A stretch of DNA of 64,000 nucleotides from Magnetospira sp. QH-2 (GTDB lineage: Bacteria > Pseudomonadota > Alphaproteobacteria > Rhodospirillales > Magnetospiraceae), in contig NZ_FO538765.1 in NCBI RefSeq assembly GCF_000968135.1, forward strand, positions 1,875,819-1,939,818. The letters are read 5' to 3'. Below are positions 1-12,497 of the stretch, piece after piece. The number at the start of each line of letters is the position of its first letter. The first letter of the stretch is position 1. The notes beneath the pieces were generated by a model. The model did not search any database and was not told the origin of the DNA. It was given only the letters and a program-made list of their open reading frames with translations. Position numbers and translations under genes: made by a program.

Positions 1-367
1 CTCTTCTTCGGTGCCGCAGGACTGGCTGAAGACCATCAACGAGTATGGCGGCGGCATGGGCGAGACCTATGGCGTTCCGGTGGAAGAAATCGTTGAAGGC
101 ATTAAGCACGGTGTGCGCAAGGTCAACATCGATACCGATCTGCGCATGGCCTCTACCGGTTCCATCCGCAAGCACCTGCACGACAACAACGCTAACTTCG
201 ATCCGCGCAAGTTCTTGAAGGTGGCCCAAGATGCCATGACCGATATCTGCAAGGCCCGCTACGAAGCCTTTGGGACCGCCGGCAATGCCGACAGAATCAA
301 GGTCATCAGCCTCGAGACCATGTTCATGGACTACGAGGCCGGTAAGTTGGACCCGAAGGTGAATTGA
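1..367 (+). CDS. fba: Fructose-bisphosphate aldolase, class II (C-terminal part)
   Basis: This is the C-terminal ~121 residues of a class II (metal-dependent) fructose-bisphosphate aldolase; the start lies left of the window. It interconverts fructose 1,6-bisphosphate with dihydroxyacetone phosphate and glyceraldehyde 3-phosphate in glycolysis, gluconeogenesis or the Calvin cycle. The reading frame is open from base 2, and the segment GVRKVNIDTDLRMASTG is the family's substrate-binding signature (the NxDTD stretch). The tail with KARYEAFGTAG and the IKVISLETM segment is typical of the CbbA/FbaA type of about 350 residues. A strong terminator follows directly. In sulfur oxidisers this gene is often part of a cbb operon, but nothing to the left is visible, so that is inference. 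Confidence 0.93.
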   Translation, partial: SSSVPQDWLKTINEYGGGMGETYGVPVEEIVEGIKHGVRKVNIDTDLRMASTGSIRKHLHDNNANFDPRKFLKVAQDAMTDICKARYEAFGTAGNADRIKVISLETMFMDYEAGKLDPKVN

Positions 368-540: not shown

Positions 541-639
541 CGGGGGATGATTTTGATAAGTATTATACTTTTGTGTTTTAATCCCGAATTCAGTGTGGTA
601 TCGAATCCTTACATAAACTTTGTTTTTCAGGGAGGCAAA

Positions 640-1284
640 ATGGTGTCCAAGACCGCTTTGCGTACCGCCCTCGCAGCTGTTCTTTTCAGCGGCCTGGCCG
701 GTACCGGGATCGCTCACGCCGATAGCCACGGTGGCATGGCGTCAGCAAGCATGTTGGCAAATACCTGTAACGGCTGTCATGGCCCGGACGGGAACAGCTA
801 TGGGCCGGCATCGCCGTCCATCGCCGGCATGAATGACCTTTATCTCACAGAAGCGCTTATGATGTACAAGAGCGGCGAACGCCCCTCGACCATCATGGGC
901 CGGATCGCCAAGGGCTATTCCGAAAAGGAACTCGAGGCTATTGCCAAGTTCTTCGCCGGCAAAAAGACCATACGCGTCGCCAAACAGAAGTCGGATGCTA
1001 AAATGGTCGAAATGGGCCAGAAGATTACCCGTGATCTCTGTGAAGGCTGCCACGAGAAAGACGGCTATGCCGCCGAGGATTACCCGATCCTGGCCGGTCA
1101 GTTGATGCCGTACCTGCGCAACAACCTGGCGGATTTCGCCTCCGGTGCGCGTAACCTGGACACCAACCCCTCGCTTTCGGCCAAGGAACGCCGCAAGAAA
1201 AAGGGCAAGTTGAAGGATCTCCACGATAAGCACGGTAAAGACGGCGTGGAGGCCGTTGTTCAGTTCTACGGCAGCCGTAAGTAA
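640..1284 (+). CDS. fccA: Periplasmic diheme cytochrome c, flavocytochrome c cytochrome-subunit type
   Basis: A 214-residue exported class I diheme cytochrome c. The ATG at 640 is chosen because GGAGG lies just upstream and the protein then begins with a normal Sec signal peptide ending about AHA-D at residue 26-27; an upstream in-frame extension is unlikely to be translated. Two CxxCH haem-binding motifs lie at residues 43-47 (CNGCH) and 134-138 (CEGCH), one per cytochrome domain. The next gene, 16 bases downstream, encodes the sulfide-dehydrogenase flavoprotein, so the pair most likely forms flavocytochrome c sulfide dehydrogenase: the flavin subunit oxidises sulfide and passes electrons to this subunit. 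The C-terminal region is unusually Lys/Arg-rich. The name follows context; sequence alone does not separate FccA from other diheme c4-like cytochromes. Confidence 0.8.
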   Translation: MVSKTALRTALAAVLFSGLAGTGIAHADSHGGMASASMLANTCNGCHGPDGNSYGPASPSIAGMNDLYLTEALMMYKSGERPSTIMGRIAKGYSEKELEAIAKFFAGKKTIRVAKQKSDAKMVEMGQKITRDLCEGCHEKDGYAAEDYPILAGQLMPYLRNNLADFASGARNLDTNPSLSAKERRKKKGKLKDLHDKHGKDGVEAVVQFYGSRK

Positions 1285-1300
1285 GGGGAGACACGTATCA

Positions 1301-2602
1301 ATGACTGATTTTAATCGTCGCGGATTTCTCAAGCTGACCGGTGGCGCTGCCGCCGTGGCTGGAGCCGCTGTTGCCGCCCCGCATGTGGCGAAAGCCGCTG
1401 GGGGCAAGGTTGTCGTGGTTGGCGGCGGTGTGGCTGGTGCCACCACTGCCCGTTACCTGAAGATCGCCGACAAGGCCATCGACGTGACCTTGATCGAGCC
1501 CAATGCCACCTATCATACTTGCTTCCTGTCCAACGAAGTGCTGTCTGGTGATCGCACCATGGACCAGATTGCCGTCACCTATGACGGCCTAAAGTCCATG
1601 GGTATCAAGGTGGTCAAGGACATGGTTACCGGCATTGATGCCATGGGCAAGAAGGTCATGACCAAGGGGGGAGAGACCTTCTCCTATGACCATTGTGTCG
1701 TGGCTCCGGGTATCTCCTTTAAGCTTGATGGTTATGGCGGCGTGTCCGATGGCATGTTCGACAAGATCCCGCATGCTTGGAAGGCCGGTCCGCAAACCGC
1801 CCTATTGCGCAAGCAGTTGGAAGCCATGCCTGATGGTGGCACCTTCTGTATGGTGGCGCCGCCGAATCCGTTCCGCTGCCCCCCCGGGCCGTACGAGCGG
1901 GCCAGCCAGATCGCCATGTACTTCCAAAACCACAAGCCGAAGTCCAAGATCGTCATTATTGATCGCAAGGAGAAGTTCTCCAAGTTCGGCCTGTTCATGG
2001 GAGCTTGGAAGAACCTGTATGGTTACGGCACCGACAACAGCATCATCAAGTGGGTGAAGGCGTCTGAAGCCGGGGCCATTGAGTCCATCGATCCCTCGAC
2101 CATGACCGTCACCACCGACTTCGAGACCGTCAAGGCCGATGTCATCAACTACATCCCGCCGCAAGTGGCCGGTGAGATCGCCATCAAGGCCGGTCTGACC
2201 AACGCCAAGGGCTGGTGCGATGTGGACAAGGTGACCTTCGAGTCCAAGGTACACAAGGGCATTCACGTGCTCGGCGATGCCTCGGTGGCGACCAAGATGC
2301 CCAAGTCCGGGTATTCCGCCAACTCGCAAGGCAAAGTCTGTGCCGCCGCCATCAACGCTGCCCTCAAAGGCATGGAGATGGGGCATCCGTCCTACGTCAA
2401 TACCTGCTACTCCATTGCCGGTAAGGACTATGGCTTCTCGGTCGCGGCTGTCTACAAGTACAACAAGGCCGAGGACCTCATTGCTCCGGTCAAGGGTGCT
2501 GGTGGTCTGACTCCGGGTGATGCGTCCGCCGAGGCGCGTCGTCGCGAGGTGGAATTCGCCTACAGCTGGTACGACAATATCGTCAAGGATACCTGGGGCT
2601 GA
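1301..2602 (+). CDS. fccB: Sulfide dehydrogenase (flavocytochrome c) flavoprotein subunit, FccB/SoxF type
   Basis: A 433-residue FAD-dependent sulfide dehydrogenase subunit that oxidises sulfide in the periplasm. The start at 1301 gives a twin-arginine signal (NRRGFLKL, residues 5-12), so the protein is exported folded with its flavin. A dinucleotide-binding GGGVAGATT motif sits at about residues 41-49. Conserved cysteines include YHTCF in the N-terminal part and FRCPPGPYERA in the middle; the latter resembles the flavocytochrome c family signature that contributes to the redox-active disulfide. The C-terminal third (about NTCYSIAGKDYGFSVAAVY) matches the FCSD flavin-binding domain. It follows the diheme cytochrome with a 16-base gap, consistent with one operon. 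SoxF would be an equally valid name. Confidence 0.9.
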   Translation: MTDFNRRGFLKLTGGAAAVAGAAVAAPHVAKAAGGKVVVVGGGVAGATTARYLKIADKAIDVTLIEPNATYHTCFLSNEVLSGDRTMDQIAVTYDGLKSMGIKVVKDMVTGIDAMGKKVMTKGGETFSYDHCVVAPGISFKLDGYGGVSDGMFDKIPHAWKAGPQTALLRKQLEAMPDGGTFCMVAPPNPFRCPPGPYERASQIAMYFQNHKPKSKIVIIDRKEKFSKFGLFMGAWKNLYGYGTDNSIIKWVKASEAGAIESIDPSTMTVTTDFETVKADVINYIPPQVAGEIAIKAGLTNAKGWCDVDKVTFESKVHKGIHVLGDASVATKMPKSGYSANSQGKVCAAAINAALKGMEMGHPSYVNTCYSIAGKDYGFSVAAVYKYNKAEDLIAPVKGAGGLTPGDASAEARRREVEFAYSWYDNIVKDTWG

Positions 2603-2801: not shown

Positions 2802-3350
2802 GTGCGTATGATCTGGAATTGGCTGAAAAATCCCGGTGTCCGCTGGGGGCTGATCGTCGGCGTCGTGGGGACGTTTGTCGGCATCGTCGGCTTCAATGTT
2901 GTGGTCGCCCACACCAATACCATGGAGTTTTGCACCTCCTGCCATTCGATGTCTTATCCTTTGGCGGAGTACAAAAAGAGCTTCCATTACAAGAATACCG
3001 TCGGTGTTCAGGCCGGGTGCCCGGACTGCCACGTACCCCATACCTATCCCGATCTGCTCATCGCCAAGGTCATGGCGGCCAAGGACGTGTATGGCGAGAT
3101 CATGGGCCATATCGAGACCCCAGAGCTCTATGAAAAGGAGCGGCTGACCATGGCCAAGCGGGTTTGGGCCAAGATGGAGGCCACGGAATCCAGGGAATGC
3201 CGCAATTGCCACGATTTCGAGGACATGCTTTCCGATGAGCAGGGACGCCGCGCCCGCCGTAAACACAGCGAGGCGCAAAAGAAAGGCGGTCATTGCATCC
3301 AATGTCACAAGGGCGTCGTGCACGAAATGCCGGAAGGGTATGAAGGATAA
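2802..3350 (+). CDS. Membrane-anchored tetraheme cytochrome c, NapC/NirT family
   Basis: A 182-residue NapC/NirT-type quinol-linked tetraheme cytochrome. The GTG at 2802 is chosen because AGAGAGGA lies 8 bases upstream; an in-frame ATG at 2808 is the alternative. A single N-terminal membrane anchor (about residues 16-35) is followed by four haem motifs: CTSCH (44), CPDCH (73), CRNCH (133) and CIQCH (165). Family members pass electrons between the quinone pool and periplasmic partners. Here the neighbours are flavocytochrome c and another tetraheme cytochrome, not a nitrate or nitrite reductase, so it may link sulfide oxidation to the quinone pool. That role, and the direction of electron flow, are inference. 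Confidence 0.87.
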   Translation: MRMIWNWLKNPGVRWGLIVGVVGTFVGIVGFNVVVAHTNTMEFCTSCHSMSYPLAEYKKSFHYKNTVGVQAGCPDCHVPHTYPDLLIAKVMAAKDVYGEIMGHIETPELYEKERLTMAKRVWAKMEATESRECRNCHDFEDMLSDEQGRRARRKHSEAQKKGGHCIQCHKGVVHEMPEGYEG

Positions 3351-3413: not shown

Positions 3414-4787
3414 ATGTTCAATAGCCGCACTGTATCGGTGGCGAGTGGAGGCCTGTTAGCGGCTGCCGCGTTGCTGATCGCCGGGGCGTATTTCGCCGAA
3501 CCGGCTACCGCCAAGTCCATGACTTCCGGCGAGACCCATGAAGACAATCTGGTGGCCTCGGTGGCTGCCGGGGGGCGTTTGTACGATGATTGGGCTCGCG
3601 AAACCGCAGCCCGTAAGCCACGCAAGGTCCATCCGCTTTATCCCGAGGAAGGCCTCTATGCCGACCAACCTTGGCAGACCTGGCGTTGTGTTACCTGCCA
3701 TGGCTGGGACTACAAGGGATCCGAGGGTATGTACCATACCGGTCCCAAGTATACGGGGATCAAGGGCATTGCGGGAAAGAGAGGCGCCGAGATCGGCGAG
3801 GTCATCGAGATCCTCACCGACGGGAAGCACGGCTACGGCGATATGATGGACGACCAAGACCTGCTTGATGTGGCGTCTTTCGTGGTCAATGGTCAGACCG
3901 ACGTGGATCAGGTCATCGATCCGGTGACCCGCCGGGCCAAGGCCAAACCGGCGGCGTCGTCGGTGTATTTCTCCACCATCTGCGTGAGCTGCCATGGGGC
4001 CGACGGGCGCATGATGGATACCATCCCGCCGGTGGGTGATGTGGCTCGGACCGATCCCTGGCAGTCGTTGCATAAGATGCTCAACGGCCACCCGGGTGAT
4101 GACATGCCGGCTTTGCGAGCTTTCAGTCTGCCGACCATCCTGTCGGTACTGGCCTATACCCAGACCCTGCCGTCCCATGATCGGCTGGCCTCCATTTCCC
4201 GGGGCGGTAAGCTCTATGACGACTGGGCCAAGGAAATCGATCGGCGCTTCCCCGAAGACCCGCATCCGTCCTTTCCCACGGGGGTCGAGATTGCCGTGGG
4301 CAGCAACACCTGGCGCTGCGTGGAGTGCCATGGCTGGGACTACAAAGGCAACAACGGCATTCGCGGTATCCGCAATCTGGCCGGGGCCCATCCGCTGGCG
4401 ATCGAGAAAATCCTCACCGATGAGACTCATCGCATGGACGATTTTCTCAAGCACAAGGATATGACCGACCTGGCCAACTTCATCAGCCAGGGGCAGGTGG
4501 AGGTCAACGAGTTCATCGACCCGACCTCCAAAAAGGCTAAGGGCAACAAGGACACCAGTCCGGAATATTTCTTGACCCTTTGCGCGACCTGTCACGGTGA
4601 GGACGGTCGCGCCATCCGCACCATGCCGCCCTTGGGCCGGGTCGCCGACAACAGCCCCTGGAAGGTGCTGCATCGTATGTTCCATGGCCATCCGGGTGAC
4701 TATATGCCCGCCTGGCAAGCGTCCATGCCGCCGACCATCGCCAAGGACGTGCTGGCCAAGCTACAGACCTTGCCGGTGAAGAAGTAG
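3414..4787 (+). CDS. Exported tetraheme cytochrome c built from a duplicated diheme unit
   Basis: A 457-residue periplasmic cytochrome. The ATG at 3414 follows GAGGAAAGG at a good distance and starts a signal peptide (cleavage near residue 33, ATA-K); TTG 3393 and ATG 3396 are less likely. Four haem motifs occur at residues 92 (CVTCH), 190 (CVSCH), 302 (CVECH) and 390 (CATCH). The first and second halves repeat each other: GGRLYDDWA and GGKLYDDWA, TWRCVTCHGWDYKG and TWRCVECHGWDYKG, and GHPGDDMPA and GHPGDYMPA, with an offset of about 200-210 residues. Each half therefore contains two different cytochrome domains, the second with a probable Met axial ligand in the HPGD-x-MPA motif. I do not recognise a named family. 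It is probably a periplasmic electron carrier or a subunit of a sulfur-compound dehydrogenase. Confidence 0.85.
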   Translation: MFNSRTVSVASGGLLAAAALLIAGAYFAEPATAKSMTSGETHEDNLVASVAAGGRLYDDWARETAARKPRKVHPLYPEEGLYADQPWQTWRCVTCHGWDYKGSEGMYHTGPKYTGIKGIAGKRGAEIGEVIEILTDGKHGYGDMMDDQDLLDVASFVVNGQTDVDQVIDPVTRRAKAKPAASSVYFSTICVSCHGADGRMMDTIPPVGDVARTDPWQSLHKMLNGHPGDDMPALRAFSLPTILSVLAYTQTLPSHDRLASISRGGKLYDDWAKEIDRRFPEDPHPSFPTGVEIAVGSNTWRCVECHGWDYKGNNGIRGIRNLAGAHPLAIEKILTDETHRMDDFLKHKDMTDLANFISQGQVEVNEFIDPTSKKAKGNKDTSPEYFLTLCATCHGEDGRAIRTMPPLGRVADNSPWKVLHRMFHGHPGDYMPAWQASMPPTIAKDVLAKLQTLPVKK

Positions 4788-4901: not shown

Positions 4902-5324
4902 ATGGATCGACAAACCTTCGCGCCCGGTGAGGTTCTTTTTAAGCAAGGGGACGACGGTGAGATCGCCTACCTGGTGGAAAAGGGCGCCATCGAGATTTCG
5001 GTCAACGAGGGAGCGGACAAGCAGGTGCTCGGCCAAATCGACCCGGGCGGCCTGTTCGGCGAGATGGCGCTGATCTCCAGCATGCCGCGCATGGCCACCG
5101 CCACGGCGACCGTTGAGGCCACCTGTGTTGTGATCCCCAGAATGGTCCTGAGCGTCCTCATCGGCGGCGCCGACCCTTTGATGAGCGCCTTGCTTCTCAA
5201 CCTCATCGGCCATATCCGCTCACTGAACGAAAAGCTCACCCCCGAACTGTTCGAGGACGACGAGGTCCAGTTCTTCTTCCAGGGAGCCGACGGGGCCTAT
5301 CGGCGGGAAGATCGGCGGGCGTGA
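4902..5324 (+). CDS. Stand-alone cyclic nucleotide-binding domain protein
   Basis: A 140-residue cytoplasmic protein consisting of one cyclic-nucleotide-binding (Crp-type) beta-roll at about residues 5-110 and a short acidic tail. The phosphate-binding-cassette signature is visible as FGEMALISSMPRMATA, with the Glu and Arg that contact the ribose and phosphate in family members. There is no helix-turn-helix DNA-binding domain, so it is not a transcription factor; it may be a cAMP/cGMP-responsive regulatory subunit. A related protein is encoded at 21430-21825. It lies between the cytochrome genes and a thioredoxin-like gene, with its own upstream terminator. Ligand and target are unknown. Confidence 0.82.
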   Translation: MDRQTFAPGEVLFKQGDDGEIAYLVEKGAIEISVNEGADKQVLGQIDPGGLFGEMALISSMPRMATATATVEATCVVIPRMVLSVLIGGADPLMSALLLNLIGHIRSLNEKLTPELFEDDEVQFFFQGADGAYRREDRRA

Positions 5325-5487: not shown

Positions 5488-6030
5488 ATGCGCCTGTTGC
5501 TGCTCATTCTAATGTTGCTGTTCACCGTCGCCACTCCAGCGCGCGCAATGGAATCCGCCCCACCCATGGCCCCGGACTGGACGGTCTCGGAATGGCTGAA
5601 CGGGGAGGGGAGTACCCTGGCCGACCTGAAAGGCAAGGTCGTGGTCATCGAGTTCTTTCAGATGTGGTGTCCAGGCTGCAATAGCTTCTCCATTCCGCTC
5701 ATGCACCAATGGCAGACCGAAACTTTCAAGGGCGCCGTGGAAGCAGGGGCATTGCAGGTGGTCAGCATCCACACGGTGTTTGAAGGCCATTCGGTCCAGA
5801 CCCCGGCAAAACTGCGCAAGTTCATCAAGCGCAAGGGCATCACCAACCTGGTGGGCATCGACGCCTACGAGAAGGGTGATCACTATCCCATCACCATGCG
5901 CCGGTGGAAGACCGGCGGCACGCCAGAAGTGGCCATCGTCGACAAGAAGGGCCGCCTGCGATTCCAGGAGTTTGGCGGCTTCAATACCGATACGGCGGAA
6001 GCGCTGATCAAAAAGCTGTTGAAGGAGTAG
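5488..6030 (+). CDS. Exported thioredoxin-like (TlpA/AhpC-TSA fold) protein
   Basis: A 180-residue periplasmic thiol-redox protein. GGAGG precedes the ATG, and a hydrophobic signal peptide ends near ARA-M (residue 20). The thioredoxin active site WCPGC lies at about residues 59-63, and the cis-Pro region appears as GGTPEVAIVD. Lying close to sox genes and a CcdA-type thiol transporter, it could be the periplasmic acceptor of CcdA-supplied electrons, comparable to SoxW or TlpA; this is inference. The gene ends at 6030 and the convergent hemB ends at 6031, so the two abut with no spacer. The 163 bases upstream (5325-5487) show no gene and no convincing motif beyond the ribosome-binding site. 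Confidence 0.8.
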   Translation: MRLLLLILMLLFTVATPARAMESAPPMAPDWTVSEWLNGEGSTLADLKGKVVVIEFFQMWCPGCNSFSIPLMHQWQTETFKGAVEAGALQVVSIHTVFEGHSVQTPAKLRKFIKRKGITNLVGIDAYEKGDHYPITMRRWKTGGTPEVAIVDKKGRLRFQEFGGFNTDTAEALIKKLLKE

Positions 6031-7131: not shown

Positions 7132-7875
7132 CTAGCTCAATTTCTGCAAGGCCGGGAAGGCTTCCAGGATCCAATTGCTGATGCTGTTCAACCCACCGGT
7201 GAGAATAAGCACGCCGGTGAGCACCAGCAGACCGCCCAAGGCCATCTCGATCTTGCCCAGATGGCGGCGGAACTTGGCCAGGAATAACATGAAGCGGCTG
7301 GCAAAGGCGGCGGCGAGCAGGAATGGAATGCCCAGTCCGGCCGAGTAGATGGACAGCAGGATAATGCCGTCCCAAATGCTTTCGCCCATGGCCGCCTGCA
7401 TGAGAATGGTCGACAATACCGGTCCGACGCAGGGGGTCCAACCGAAGCCAAACGCCATACCGATCAAAAAGGCGCCGATCACCCCTGCTGGTTTGTTTTC
7501 CAGGTGAAAGCGCTTTTCGAAGTTCAAGAATCCGATCTTGAACAGGCCCATGTAATGCAGCCCGAAGATAATGATCAAGATGGCGCCGAAAATGGCGAAT
7601 TCCCGTTTGTGCTGACCCATGAAGCCGCCGATGGTGGTGGCTCCGGCGCCCAGGCTGACAAACACGAAGCTCAGGCCGAGGACGAAAAACAGGCCGGAGA
7701 TCAATGCCCGGCGGGTTGTTTCCGATCGCTGCTTGGAATCCGCGTCGGTCAGGTCTTCCAGCGAGGCGCCGGAGATGAACGACAGGTAGGCTGGCACAAG
7801 CGGCAGAATGCAGGGGGCCAAGAAGGTGAGGATACCGGCAACCATCGCCGTACCGTAGGAAACGTCCATGCCCAT
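7132..7875 (-). CDS. soxV: CcdA/SoxV-type thiol-disulfide membrane transporter
   Basis: A 247-residue polytopic membrane protein of the CcdA/DsbD transmembrane family, which moves reducing equivalents from cytoplasmic thioredoxin to periplasmic thiol proteins. The redox cysteines are visible in FLAPCILPLVPAY (first membrane helix) and GWTPCVGPVLS (fourth), each flanked by the typical prolines. CAGGAG nine bases upstream supports the ATG at 7875. Its position directly downstream of soxB suggests the SoxV role of keeping the SoxY carrier cysteine reduced through a periplasmic thioredoxin. The same protein could serve cytochrome c maturation, which this cytochrome-rich cell needs. The gene name follows context. 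Confidence 0.88.
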   Translation of the reverse strand: MGMDVSYGTAMVAGILTFLAPCILPLVPAYLSFISGASLEDLTDADSKQRSETTRRALISGLFFVLGLSFVFVSLGAGATTIGGFMGQHKREFAIFGAILIIIFGLHYMGLFKIGFLNFEKRFHLENKPAGVIGAFLIGMAFGFGWTPCVGPVLSTILMQAAMGESIWDGIILLSIYSAGLGIPFLLAAAFASRFMLFLAKFRRHLGKIEMALGGLLVLTGVLILTGGLNSISNWILEAFPALQKLS

Positions 7876-7900
7876 GATCGGGAACTCCTGACAAACGGGG

Positions 7901-7931
7901 GCCCCGCGCTCTCAGAGGAGAGGCGCGGGGC
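7901..7931 (-). terminator. Hairpin between soxB and ccdA
   Basis: GCCCCGCGC (7901-7909) and GCGCGGGGC (7923-7931) form a perfect 9-bp stem, extendable by TCTC/GAGA. Read on the - strand it follows the soxB stop by about 24 bases and precedes ccdA. Only a weak T-rich stretch follows, so partial termination or mRNA stabilisation is more likely than a full stop. Confidence 0.5.
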
Positions 7932-7954
7932 AGTAACGGGGGAAACGAACGCGC

Positions 7955-9643
7955 TTAAGCGCCGACGACCTTAATACTGCGATTGGGCGGTAGGTCGATG
8001 ACTTTCTTGCGTTGGATGTAGTCGGAGACCACGTCCCAGATGGGCGGACCCTCGGTGCCTTCATTGACCGATGCCCAACCGCCGACGGTGTAGTCCTTGG
8101 AGGCCTCGACCTTTTCACCATTGGACAAAAGGGTCATGTCGGAAACCCGGCTACCCATTTTCTCGTGGATATTGAAGGTAAAGCCCATGCCGCCGACACG
8201 CACCATGTCGCCACCCTGCTGGTAGTAGGGATCCGGGTTGAACAGGTTGTCGCCCACGTCTTCAAGGATGTCCTTGATGGTTTTTCCGCTCATCTGCGAG
8301 CGGTAGCAGGCCGGATAGGTGATGCCGGTCTGATGATAGACATGCTCGACCAGAATGTCCGAGCCCGGGGGCAGGGACGAGCCCCAACGGAACCCTGGCG
8401 ACAGGGAAATCTGACAATCGCGCTCTTCGATGATCGACTGACAGATCAGATCGTCGAAGGTACCGTTGAAGTTGCCCCGGCGATACAGCAGGGAATCGGT
8501 GCGGCCCAGGACCTTGTTGACGTCCTTTTCGTAGGGCGCGCGGATCTGATGCACCAGCTTGGCCATTTCCGGGTCCGGGGTGATGGCATCGGTGAACACC
8601 GGCATCAGCTTGAACCGGTAGTCGGCCACTTTTTTGTTTTCCACCTTAACGTCCAGGCGGGCCAGGAACTTGCCGTGGGAGCCGGAGGCCACCATCAGGG
8701 TATCCTTGACCTTGATCACGTCGGGAATGGCGTCATGGGTATGGCCGGTCAGCAGCACGTCGATGCCCTCGACCCGCGAGGCCAGTTTGCGGTCCACGTC
8801 GAAGCCGTCATGACTGGCCAACACGACCAGATCGGCGCCTTCATCGCGCGCCTTGGTCACATGCTCCTGTACGGTCTCTTCACGGATACCGAAGGACCAC
8901 TCGGGGATCATGAAGCGCGGATTGGCCACCGGGGTGTAAGGGAACGCCTGGCCGATGACCGCGACTTTGACGCCGCCGCGATCGAAATAGGCATGGCTCT
9001 CGAACACCGGCTCCTCGAAATCATTATCCACCACGTTGCCGCAGAGGAACGGGAATTCGAGCATATCCACCAATTCCTTGACCCGCTCGGCGCCATGGGT
9101 GAATTCCCAGTGGGCGGTCATGGCATCGACACCCAGGGCGTTCATGGCCTTGACCATGTCCTCGCCGCGGGTCTTCAGGGCGGTGTAGGAGCCTTGCCAG
9201 GTATCGCCGTTATCGATCAGCAAGGTATTGTTTGGGCGCTCGGCGCGGATGGCCTTGACCAGCGTGGCCATATGGGCCAGTCCGCCGACCCGTCCATAAT
9301 CCTTTGATAGGTTGGCGAAATCGGTGCTGCTCAGGGCATAGGCCTCGGGCGTCCCGGCTTGCAATCCAAACATCTTGAGAAAGGCCTCGCCGGTGATGTG
9401 GGGCGGCAGGCCATGGACTTCACCAACGCCCAGATTGACCGACGGCTCGCGGAAGTACAATGGCATCAGTTGGGCATGGATATCGGTGAAGTTCAGCAAG
9501 GTCACTTGACCTGTGGAATCGAACTTCAGCAGTTCGTCCTGGGTGATCTTGCCCCGCGCGGCGGCATGAGAGATCCCCCCTAAGGGACCGGCAAAGGCGG
9601 CGGTGGCAGCGGCGACCTGTAGGAAATCGCGTCGAGTGAGCAT
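7955..9643 (-). CDS. soxB: Thiosulfohydrolase SoxB
   Basis: SoxB is the periplasmic dimanganese enzyme that hydrolyses sulfate from the S-sulfonate or S-thiosulfonate bound to SoxY. The 562-residue length is typical. A twin-arginine signal is present (TRRDFLQ, residues 3-9). Metallophosphatase/5'-nucleotidase motifs are visible: FTDIHAQL, IDNGDTWQGS, and TGHTHDAIP in the middle. The C-terminal 5'-nucleotidase domain contains RWGSSLPPGSDI. GCGAGG lies just upstream of the ATG. A terminator separates it from soxA, so it may have its own promoter or depend on read-through. Confidence 0.97.
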   Translation of the reverse strand: MLTRRDFLQVAAATAAFAGPLGGISHAAARGKITQDELLKFDSTGQVTLLNFTDIHAQLMPLYFREPSVNLGVGEVHGLPPHITGEAFLKMFGLQAGTPEAYALSSTDFANLSKDYGRVGGLAHMATLVKAIRAERPNNTLLIDNGDTWQGSYTALKTRGEDMVKAMNALGVDAMTAHWEFTHGAERVKELVDMLEFPFLCGNVVDNDFEEPVFESHAYFDRGGVKVAVIGQAFPYTPVANPRFMIPEWSFGIREETVQEHVTKARDEGADLVVLASHDGFDVDRKLASRVEGIDVLLTGHTHDAIPDVIKVKDTLMVASGSHGKFLARLDVKVENKKVADYRFKLMPVFTDAITPDPEMAKLVHQIRAPYEKDVNKVLGRTDSLLYRRGNFNGTFDDLICQSIIEERDCQISLSPGFRWGSSLPPGSDILVEHVYHQTGITYPACYRSQMSGKTIKDILEDVGDNLFNPDPYYQQGGDMVRVGGMGFTFNIHEKMGSRVSDMTLLSNGEKVEASKDYTVGGWASVNEGTEGPPIWDVVSDYIQRKKVIDLPPNRSIKVVGA

Positions 9644-9685
9644 CGGAACCTCGCAACTCTCTGAAATATTGTATTTATAGGGACG

Positions 9686-9726
9686 AAAAAGGGACGGCGC
9701 GCGCCTTTGGCTTGCATTGCCGTCCC
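9686..9726 (-). terminator. Rho-independent terminator between soxA and soxB
   Basis: On the - strand, an 8-bp stem (arms 9719-9726 and 9691-9698, GGGACGGC/GCCGTCCC) is followed by five Ts (complement of 9686-9690). It lies 22 bases after the soxA stop and 42 bases before the soxB start. Confidence 0.8.
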
Positions 9727-9748
9727 TAATCTTCAGTCGTCCAGAACC

Positions 9749-10570
9749 TTAGCGGCGAACCGACGGGGATTCCGAAGGCAGACCGTTGGAGCGCCACATG
9801 ACGAACAGCTCCAGGTTCGTGTACTCGTCGGAACCACGCTTGTAGGGTTCCGCGCGAATGTTTTTGTTGCAACCGGTGAAGCGGCGTTGGATGGACCCCA
9901 GCTTCTGCCATTTCAGGCGGAAGGTCGGGAAACCATTGCCCATGCCGTGGCTCAGCAAGTCGGCGCGGATCATGTTACCGGGATTGTCCATATGGCACAT
10001 GTTGCAAGACAGGTCCATCTGGCCACGACGCTGAAAGTAGAAGTCGCGTCCGGCTTCGAAGAACGGCTTGGCTTCGCCATCCACTTTGACGTTGATCGGC
10101 ATGCCGCGAGATTGCAGCTTGATGAGGGCGACCATGCCCAGCATCGGGTCCGATTCCCACTTCCAATCCTTGGCGCCCATCCGTTCGGTCAGGCACTCGC
10201 TGATGCGATCTTGCAGGGTCGCAAGCTTTTTGTGCTTGTCGTAGTACTTCGGATAGGTGACCGACAGACCCTTGAAGGTTTCCACGCTTCCGTGGCAGCT
10301 GGCGCAGGCCTTGCCCTTGGAACCGTTGACCTCATCCCAGTCTTCCTGCGAATCCTCGATCCATTGGAAAGCGGGGTTTTCGAAGTCGTCTTCCTGGATA
10401 TCGCGGGTCTCTACGGTGGAATAGACATAGCCGGACTCTTTGTCGCCGACGATGTAATTCTTGATCCGCTCATCGTTCATGATGTTGTCGAATGGGCCGG
10501 CTTGGGCCGAGGCACTGACCAGCACGATGCCGGCCAATGCACTCATAATTCCCAGTTTAATCTGCCCCAT
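9749..10570 (-). CDS. soxA: Diheme c-type cytochrome SoxA
   Basis: SoxA, with SoxX, forms the cytochrome that oxidatively couples thiosulfate to the SoxY cysteine. The ATG at 10570 follows GGGAGGAAC; a GTG 27 bases upstream would place this ribosome-binding site inside the gene. The protein has 273 residues with a signal peptide cleaved near AQA-G (residue 24). Haem motifs lie at residues 89-93 (CASCH) and 189-193 (CNMCH), making it a diheme SoxA. The catalytic persulfide-forming cysteine is C234 in FTGCNKNIRAEP, the family signature. It is the last gene of the soxXYZA operon. Confidence 0.96.
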   Translation of the reverse strand: MGQIKLGIMSALAGIVLVSASAQAGPFDNIMNDERIKNYIVGDKESGYVYSTVETRDIQEDDFENPAFQWIEDSQEDWDEVNGSKGKACASCHGSVETFKGLSVTYPKYYDKHKKLATLQDRISECLTERMGAKDWKWESDPMLGMVALIKLQSRGMPINVKVDGEAKPFFEAGRDFYFQRRGQMDLSCNMCHMDNPGNMIRADLLSHGMGNGFPTFRLKWQKLGSIQRRFTGCNKNIRAEPYKRGSDEYTNLELFVMWRSNGLPSESPSVRR

Positions 10571-10618
10571 GACGTGTTCCTCCCAATTTTTATTCACGGC
10601 ATCCGGTTTTCCGGTTGC

Positions 10619-10945
10619 TCAGCTAACGGTGATCTTCTTGGTCGCGCTGACGGATTCACCGGTTTCCTCGCTCCAAGTCATCTTAAACTCGCCACTTTCC
10701 GTGGCCCGATGGAAGAAAGCGATGTAGGGGCTAGCGGACACAGCGCCTTCGAGAGACATGCCGAACACCGGCTTGCCATTGAAGGTCACATCGAACTTAT
10801 TGATGATCTTGCGCGGCACGATCTTGCCACCCTTGCCCTTGCGCAGGCCGGATTCCATGTCGTGCTTGATCATGGTCTTGATCTGGAAAGTGTCGCCCTT
10901 CTTGGCGCTCTTCGGTACTTTCACGCGGGGTTTCTGCAAAGCCAT
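10619..10945 (-). CDS. soxZ: Sulfur-carrier complex subunit SoxZ
   Basis: SoxZ is the 108-residue partner of SoxY. The heterodimer SoxYZ carries sulfur intermediates between the periplasmic Sox enzymes. The sequence has the family's start (PRVKVPKSAKKGDTFQIKT) and the central HDMESGLRKGKGG segment and lacks a signal peptide, as expected because it is co-exported with Tat-targeted SoxY. AAGGAG upstream fixes the ATG. It lies between soxY and soxA on the same strand with short gaps. Confidence 0.96.
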   Translation of the reverse strand: MALQKPRVKVPKSAKKGDTFQIKTMIKHDMESGLRKGKGGKIVPRKIINKFDVTFNGKPVFGMSLEGAVSASPYIAFFHRATESGEFKMTWSEETGESVSATKKITVS

Positions 10946-10988
10946 TAGGTCTTACTCCTTAGAATAACCAATATCGAACCGAGGGAAA

Positions 10989-11474
10989 TCAGCCGCCGCA
11001 GCCGCCGATAGTCACCTTGGTTTCCTTCTTGTTCGAAATCACCGATCCGTCGCTCATTTCGGCTACGGCCACGATATTCTGAGTCTTGGCCATGCGGATA
11101 CGGGTGGCCACTTCGGCCTTGCCGCATTCGGCGGAGAGCGTAAAGGAGCAGACACCCGGGTTGGGGTTGCCCTCGGAGATGATGTGGATTTTTTTGACGT
11201 GATCAGCGGCGGTCATCGGGCTTTCGACCTTGACGGTCACCGGCACGGTGTTGCCGTTCTCGGCGATCTCCGGCAGCTTCAGAGACACGCGCGCGTCACC
11301 GCCAGCGGGCATCTTACCGGATAACTTCTTGGCCAATTCGGCGGCCTTGTCGGGAGTGGCCTGGGCGGATTTGGGGGTCAGGGTTGCACCGGCCACGGCC
11401 AGGGCGCCTCCACCAAACACACCGAGCAGACCGCGGCGGCTTACCGCCATAGAGGTCTTGGATTGATCGGACAT
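10989..11474 (-). CDS. soxY: Sulfur-carrier protein SoxY
   Basis: SoxY is the periplasmic carrier on whose C-terminal cysteine all Sox intermediates are bound. The protein has 161 residues, with a twin-arginine signal (SRRGLLGVFGGG, residues 12-23) and the diagnostic C-terminal GGCGG, Cys159 being the sulfur-carrying residue. Two further cysteines occur (GVCSFTLSAECGK), which is less usual and could form a disulfide. GAGGAGAG upstream supports the ATG at 11474. It is the second gene of soxXYZA. Confidence 0.97.
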   Translation of the reverse strand: MSDQSKTSMAVSRRGLLGVFGGGALAVAGATLTPKSAQATPDKAAELAKKLSGKMPAGGDARVSLKLPEIAENGNTVPVTVKVESPMTAADHVKKIHIISEGNPNPGVCSFTLSAECGKAEVATRIRMAKTQNIVAVAEMSDGSVISNKKETKVTIGGCGG

Positions 11475-11522
11475 GCTACTAACTCTCCTCGTTTTCTTGC
11501 GTTGTCGCTCTTGGTCGAGCGG

Positions 11523-11984
11523 TCAATTTTCCTTCAGGGTCTTCAAATAGGCAACCACATCTTCCACTTCCTGAGCGGAAAGCATGGTCTTGCCCTGATG
11601 CTTTTTCATCACCCGATTGAGGCCTTCGATCCGGTAGAACGAGGGCATCATGGATTCAGAGTTGGTGATTTTGGGATCAACGATACGCAGACGAAGCTCG
11701 GCTTCACTCATGCGGCTTCCCACACCAGCCAGGTCGGGACCGACCTCGCCGTGAAACTGTTCTTCCGGAATCGGCATTTTATGGCAGGCAAGGCAGTTGC
11801 CTTTCTTGCGGGCAACAGCGGTTTTCTTGCCTTTGGCTGCATCTCCGGCCACACCAGCAAGGTATTCGGGGATGCCTTCGCCAACCACGAAAAAGTCAAT
11901 GGTATCAGCGGCGCGGGCGTCGGTGTGCACCGAAGCGGTCACGGTCAGCGCCAAAGCGGCGCCAAGAATGGCCTTGGATCGCAT
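11523..11984 (-). CDS. soxX: Monoheme c-type cytochrome SoxX
   Basis: SoxX is the small cytochrome subunit of SoxAX. The ATG at 11984 follows GGGAGGAATT; an upstream in-frame extension lacks support. The 153-residue protein has a signal peptide ending near ARA-A (residue 25), one haem motif CLACH at residues 64-68 and a probable Met axial ligand in SMMPSFYR (residues 111-118). It is the first gene of the soxXYZA operon, reading away from the divergent dsrE2-like gene across a 513-base intergenic region. Confidence 0.93.
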   Translation of the reverse strand: MRSKAILGAALALTVTASVHTDARAADTIDFFVVGEGIPEYLAGVAGDAAKGKKTAVARKKGNCLACHKMPIPEEQFHGEVGPDLAGVGSRMSEAELRLRIVDPKITNSESMMPSFYRIEGLNRVMKKHQGKTMLSAQEVEDVVAYLKTLKEN

Positions 11985-12497
11985 AATTCCTCCCAAATGT
12001 ATTTCACGACTGTTTGAGCCGTATGGTTTTTTGAACAGGCCAATGGGCCCTTGCACAGAAAACTAGTCGCCCACGGCTGCCCAATCAACCGAAATATTGA
12101 ATCTGGGTCGTAATTTTCCGCTATAACGCAATGCAATAACGTAAGATTGATGCGCTATCTGGGAAATTTTACATAGATTGTGCCTAAAATGGTTCGTCGA
12201 TGAACGAAAGAATCATGTGGCACATGATGGCTGGCCGGATTCGAAAAAATTTGTCGGTCGTCTGTTTCGGTTGGTCTGACCGGATAAAATGAATTACAAT
12301 CAGTGCCCTTGGGATCAAGTGAAATGATCTTTGAACGACCTTTGAGGTTCTTGGCACCCCCTTGGGTTCACAATTTCCTTTTATCCCTGAGGTTAAATGT
12401 ATTAGAGTGCCATTAATTAGGAAACGCTAAACTAGCCGGTAGCGCTGGCTGGCAGGGAAAATTCACCTATAGACGCAATGGGTTAGGGAGAGACGTG
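11985..12497. promoter_or_regulatory. Divergent intergenic region between soxX and the dsrE2-like gene
   Basis: This 513-base stretch has no credible gene and is more AT-rich than its surroundings, so it should hold the promoters of both divergent operons. The most notable element is a dyad at 12212-12228, ATCATGTG-G-CACATGAT, a perfect 8-bp inverted repeat around one base. A smaller TTCGT/ACGAA dyad (12193-12208) lies next to it. A directly repeated ATAACG lies nearer soxX (about 12130-12155). No regulator gene (soxR, soxS-type or two-component) is adjacent. Promoter hexamers cannot be assigned with confidence. Confidence 0.5.

Follow-up and report, generated by a model that had tools for sequence, protein, structure and literature searches.

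What is the role of a tetraheme c-type cytochrome encoded directly after a flavocytochrome c sulfide dehydrogenase (FCSD) and a NapC/NirT-type membrane cytochrome, and in which direction do its electrons flow? We asked this of a gene, here called T, near the start of a 64,000-nt stretch of Magnetospira sp. QH-2 DNA, the whole of which we refer to as the window. A sequence-only reading had taken T for a tandem duplication of a diheme unit, had recognised no characterised family with this layout, and had suggested an electron carrier or enzyme subunit for sulfur compounds. The features that bear on the question are collected in Table 1.

Table 1. T, its two units and the surrounding genes (positions are those of the window).
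Feature	Position	Strand	Details
cbbA 3' end, class II fructose-bisphosphate aldolase	11..367	+	closes the run response regulator-cbbP-cbbT-cbbA just upstream
FccA/SoxE-type diheme cytochrome	634..1284	+	two CXXCH, two PF00034 stretches; same place in 14/14 doubled-T FccB loci
FccB/SoxF, flavocytochrome c sulfide dehydrogenase flavoprotein	1301..2602	+	PF21706 E 7e-48, PF09242 E 4.1e-27
NapC/NirT-type membrane tetraheme cytochrome, candidate quinone oxidoreductase	2802..3350	+	PF03264 E 3.1e-64
T, tetraheme c-type cytochrome, two tandem diheme units, N-terminal signal peptide	3414..4787	+	457 aa
T unit 1, residues about 45-256	3546..4181	+	CXXCH 92-96 with candidate distal His139; CXXCH 190-194 with candidate distal Met231
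T unit 2, residues about 257-457	4182..4784	+	CXXCH 302-306 with candidate distal His339; CXXCH 390-394 with candidate distal Met431
Cyclic-nucleotide-binding domain protein	4902..5324	+	PF00027; operon membership uncertain
Thioredoxin-like protein	5488..6030	+	PF08534/PF00578; SoxW-like by position
DsbD/CcdA-like, then SoxB-like, SoxA, SoxZ, SoxY, SoxX-like	7132..12056	-	Pfam

The duplication that had been read from the letters held up. T carries four CXXCH motifs, starting at residues 92, 190, 302 and 390, and its halves align with 95/208 identities (46%; blastp, E 3e-65), far beyond chance. The motifs LYDDWA, TWRCxxCHGWDYKG and GHPGDxMPA are present in both halves, and each half has two different class-I-like heme domains, the first with a His and the second with a Met as its candidate distal ligand, again as had been claimed. 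We placed the start of the gene at ATG 3414, which is preceded by a GAGGAAAGG-like ribosome site, a better one than that of TTG 3393, where the mechanically called open reading frame begins; the stop codon is at 4785-4787 on the + strand. A Sec-like signal peptide was read by eye.

T belongs to the class I cytochrome c superfamily, with cytochrome c and CBB3 models over their cut-offs (PF13442 at 63.9 bits and PF00034 at 62.6 bits, four stretches each). Beyond these generic models, Pfam gave DUF1924, by a small margin above its threshold and matching 17 residues at one of the heme motifs, and none of the NCBIfam models reached its cut-off on T, in agreement with the earlier failure to recognise a characterised family. 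A profile search of the PDB with T returned generic cytochrome c chains only, and profile matches to CcoP and c4 chains were weak. Like cytochrome c4, FccA and CcoP, the T unit has two class-I-like heme domains in tandem; unlike them, it has a long N-terminal part (GGxLYDxW...WRCxxCHGWDxxG) and an invariant His as candidate ligand in domain 1, and it occurs in concatemers of one to four units. AlphaFold2 models reached a pLDDT of 36.8 from 4 full-length rows and 53.7 from 8 unit rows, values too low for the models to bear on fold or docking.

Whole genomes were searched with the T query, and matches were counted at E 1e-3 or better. At this threshold there were matches in 20/385 genomes of the class, in 50/120 relatives (of which 48 reached 1e-40 or better) and in 85/398 genomes of the phylum, of which just 29 were at 1e-30 or better and the remainder were weak and short. 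Phylum matches at E 1e-4 to 1e-7, which resemble CcoP or short heme-motif matches, were left out of the family. No match was found among 72,556 plasmids. A unit HMM, run on fetched stretches that represent a subset of all matches, identified 102 proteins with complete units, 79 of them single, 21 doubled, one tripled and one quadrupled, giving 128 units in total. The 79 are the single-unit homologues that the sequence-only reading had proposed to look for together with their gene neighbourhoods; neighbourhoods were scored for 104 T genes, a number that counts the fragmented genes of loci L076 and L112, while only the first L112 piece is among the 102 proteins. The triple-unit protein (L105:8249-10321; 690 aa, six CXXCH) adjoins a molybdoenzyme, and the quadruple-unit protein (L103:9430-12165; 911 aa, eight CXXCH) adjoins NrfD/FeS/tetraheme genes. 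The diheme unit family is thus real and widespread, and it is unnamed in Pfam and NCBIfam.

Conserved in the units are GG.LYD.W, WRC..CHGWD..G, an invariant His, a second C..CHG..G and a Met. The candidate distal His of domain 1 (139 in unit 1) is found in 128/128 units, and the Met of domain 2 (231 in unit 1) in 124/128. Judging by this conservation, the best distal-ligand candidates are His139 for heme 1 and Met231 for heme 2; further conserved His residues at 73 (118/128 units) and 220 (122/128) are also possible ligands. In each unit, one domain would probably be His/His-ligated and the other probably His/Met-ligated, and all four hemes of T have a candidate sixth protein ligand. This last point bears on the idea that T has a catalytic role of its own, perhaps as a dehydrogenase of thiosulfate or polysulfide. 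In favour of the idea, there are enzymes among the multiheme cytochromes of sulfur metabolism, TsdA being one. Against it stand the candidate sixth ligands on all four hemes, the lack of any match in T, up to an E of 1, to the SoxA/TsdA-type domain PF21342 that was found in the neighbouring SoxA, and the partners of T, which vary between lineages as suits a carrier. We consider an enzymatic T very improbable, and for the "enzyme subunit" half of the earlier suggestion we found no positive evidence.

To place the duplication in time, we used a quick likelihood tree of the 128 units, with SH-aLRT support only. The first halves of 15 doubled proteins (that of L110 included) form one set with support 95, and the second halves of the same 15 form a separate set with support 91. 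Because first and second halves fall into separate sets, the duplication is old and has been kept since before the families split; the doubled form of T is conserved. The three units of the triple-unit protein group together (support 97), and this triple is an independent lengthening. Partner labels follow the unit tree, with 26 changes compared to 73.7 in shuffles (0/200 as low), a difference to which near-copies contribute.

The neighbours of T are also as the sequence-only reading had named them. The adjacent fccAB genes encode an FCSD, as judged from PF21706 and PF09242 together with the adjoining diheme cytochrome, and the gene just before T belongs to the NapC/NirT family by its PF03264 N-terminal region and four CXXCH, although it scores 212.6 against the curated NCBIfam napC_nirT cut-off of 310.6. 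The order fccA-fccB-napC-T recurs in 14/21 doubled T genes, with napC-T gaps of 0-140 bp. For the remaining seven (L094 and L107, both cut by a contig end, and L103, L104, L106, L110 and L111), FccB is absent within 5 kb of fetched stretch. In G385, fccA-fccB-napC and T lie on separate contigs; T is missing from the 2.1 kb that follow napC. Where single-unit T genes occur in FccB loci, the order is fccA1-fccB-T-napC with a monoheme FccA, in 7/7 examined. The heme number of FccA therefore tracks T, with diheme FccA beside doubled T in 14/14 and monoheme FccA beside single T in 7/7; we did not count this match in favour of stoichiometric coupling, as either state goes back, in essence, to a single lineage. 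For the same kind of reason the doubled FccB loci, which share one origin, are not independent observations.

A same-strand NapC/NirT-type gene lies within 250 bp of 35/104 T genes, whatever the enzyme partner; by unit number, this holds for 20/81 single, 14/21 double, 1/1 triple and 0/1 quadruple T genes. FccB adjoins T in 19 of the 78 places listed for it in 120 genomes of the order, which means that FCSD can do without T. The Magnetospira genome itself has three FccB genes, two of them outside the window, and five NapC-type matches including the query, one of which adjoins a single-unit T paralogue (L093).

We also examined what surrounds the operon. Calvin-cycle genes flank the doubled FccB operon in 8/14 loci (the Magnetospira genome, L095 and L096-L101). 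They encode phosphoribulokinase, transketolase, aldolase and, in some loci, FBPase, and they lie upstream in the Magnetospira genome, as response regulator-cbbP-cbbT-cbbA, and downstream in L096-L101. RuBisCO-family genes are present in the Magnetospira genome. This embedding among Calvin-cycle genes, like the conservation of the duplication and the longer concatemers, goes beyond the sequence-only reading. Genes of the sox system accompany the operon as well: soxX, soxY and soxB come after it in L053, L102, L108 and L109, soxY lies upstream of it in L004 and L005, and in the window the sox genes lie at 7.9 to 12.1 kb on the strand opposite to T, with SoxB and SoxX assigned by position and generic Pfam matches.

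We propose, with a probability of about 0.5, that T is a soluble periplasmic relay that carries electrons from FCSD to a dedicated NapC/NirT-type quinone-linked cytochrome and so to the quinone pool. FccAB would oxidise sulfide, or a reduced sulfur compound like it, with the electrons passing to the diheme FccA, which would hand them to T, and T in turn to the adjoining NapC/NirT-type membrane cytochrome, where quinone would be reduced. Its doubling may give T a longer reach as a bridge and additional faces for docking. Together, the four proteins would make up a sulfide:quinone redox module, supplying quinol to Calvin-cycle autotrophs, in which reverse electron transport would lead to NADH. 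The main argument for electron flow toward quinone is the Calvin-cycle context; the pair of T and NapC does not by itself fix the direction, since the pair linked to cytochrome cd1 presumably runs from quinol. What was observed for this scheme is the gene order with its conservation, the families of the parts, the heme motifs and the course of the duplication; the heme ligands, the physical partners, the substrate and the direction of flow are inferred from these.

Flow in the opposite direction would have the NapC-type protein oxidise quinol and T deliver the electrons to a periplasmic acceptor, either FccAB acting as a sulfur/polysulfide reductase or some other reductase. NapC and NirT are best known as quinol dehydrogenases, according to the accessible text of PMC5845722, and where single-unit T has genes for cytochrome cd1 and an azurin-like protein beside it, as in 6/7 units of one tree set (support 95), electron transfer from quinol to nitrite is the obvious reading. 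The joining of the Fcc operons to Calvin-cycle and sox genes argues instead for an electron donor role, and no reductase gene was seen in common to the 14 doubled FccB loci, so that we regard a reductive T as unlikely in this setting. T might also be part of an ordinary periplasmic electron pool running from FccAB/Sox to bc1/cbb3, with the NapC-type protein as a separate quinol exit feeding the same pool. This would fit the His/Met pattern of one domain per unit, which is typical of higher-potential hemes, and the textbook entry of Fcc electrons at cytochrome c, which is stated in the accessible text of PMC4288042 and runs counter to entry at quinone. An ordinary pool, however, leaves unexplained why napC lies between fccB and T in 14/14 doubled FccB loci and adjoins T in 7/7 single-unit ones, and we regard such a pool as unlikely too.

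The relay from FCSD to quinone that we favour has a counterpart in the hydroxylamine:ubiquinone redox module (HURM; HAO, c554, cM552), in which hydroxylamine dehydrogenase, c554 and cM552 feed quinone and cM552 is of the NapC/NrfH family, as described in the accessible part of PMC3701875. Like HURM as described there, the proposed T module would link a periplasmic dehydrogenase, through a multiheme shuttle that is soluble, to a membrane tetraheme cytochrome of the NapC/NrfH family, and genes for these three kinds of protein stand together in 14/21 doubled T loci. In contrast to HURM, FCSD takes the place of the dehydrogenase, and a doubled diheme unit of class-I-like domains that of the shuttle; T gave no match to PF13435, the Pfam model for c554, up to an E of 1. 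Sulfide:quinone oxidoreductase (SQR), a single flavoprotein, has the same net reaction, sulfide to quinone, as the module proposed for T, in which a heme chain of four components based on FCSD would carry it out. In the usual scheme FCSD passes its electrons to cytochrome c; the energy yield is then lower than with SQR, and reverse electron transport from quinol cannot be fed directly. If it is true that some alphaproteobacteria wire FCSD to quinone via T and NapC, this argument about FCSD energetics changes for them, and the operon offers a genetic test of such wiring.

The kinds of the parts are known. None of the libraries searched has a name for the carrier family, and searches of open-licence papers turned up neither the combination nor any paper on an fcc-napC-cytochrome operon or on the diheme unit family. 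A broader claim, which we advance tentatively as falling short of an even bet, is that FCSD, doubled diheme T and a NapC-type quinone reductase constitute an unrecognised sulfide:quinone module within a Calvin-cycle cluster, in which electrons enter at quinone, and that its carrier family is modular (one to four units), with other lineages serving cytochrome cd1, molybdoenzymes and c-heme signalling proteins.

The other lineages of the unit are found beside cytochrome cd1, molybdoenzymes, NrfD/FeS modules or c-heme sensor proteins. The suggestion that T is a sulfur-linked carrier therefore fits the doubled subfamily, most of which is in the fccA-fccB-napC-T order, and does not extend to the unit family as a whole. 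The family shows a single diheme unit put to use with many different partners and extended through tandem duplication, and it may serve as a marker for unannotated quinone-linked periplasmic pathways.

Because six single-unit loci have the order nirS-(nirT)-T-azurin, we suspected that T was NirB (Pseudomonas stutzeri cytochrome c552 type). As NirB candidate we took the gene after nirS-nirT in presumed Pseudomonadaceae, inferred from paired CcoP-like matches; a nirT-nirB-like pair was present in 5/30 fetched nirS loci of that presumed family. When T was compared with this downstream gene by hhalign, the probability was 8% over 14 columns, and by Pfam the candidate contains EB_dh (PF09459), which is absent from T. 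A P0001 search of 198 genomes of presumed Pseudomonadaceae gave no match at E 1e-12. Since the NirB candidate is of the EB_dh type and does not align with the T unit, T is a distinct carrier that occupies a comparable place. PcrO and NapO were likewise rejected as relatives of T, as they are described in the accessible text of PMC5845722 as ethylbenzene-dehydrogenase gamma-like. NirB, PcrO and NapO (the partners of NirT, PcrQ and NapC) share with T the arrangement of a soluble diheme carrier adjoining a NapC/NirT quinol dehydrogenase, and the position beside nirS in some loci, but they are of an unrelated fold family.

Several smaller observations were made in the fetched loci. All 15 units of one tree set (support 96), which are the single-unit T genes of L187, L188, L189, L191, L193-L196, L200-L203, L205, L207 and L210, lie near a gene with an N-terminal C-heme motif, 13 of them within 250 bp. 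Two of these c-heme sensor-like proteins were scanned by Pfam and have HAMP and PAS domains, with GGDEF or a histidine kinase as output; the possible pairing of a c-heme signalling protein with a diheme cytochrome as its redox partner would merit separate study. EB_dh (NirB-like) proteins were seen near T at L056:12964-14742, L065:6557-7999 and L105:15413-16858. The one in L056 has five CXXCH and clusters with NapC proteins, and looks like a NirT-NirB fusion. Finally, at L085:2748-9548 a T unit is fused behind a caspase-like (Peptidase_C14) domain; three related genes precede the fusion, and the one that was scanned also matches the caspase domain.
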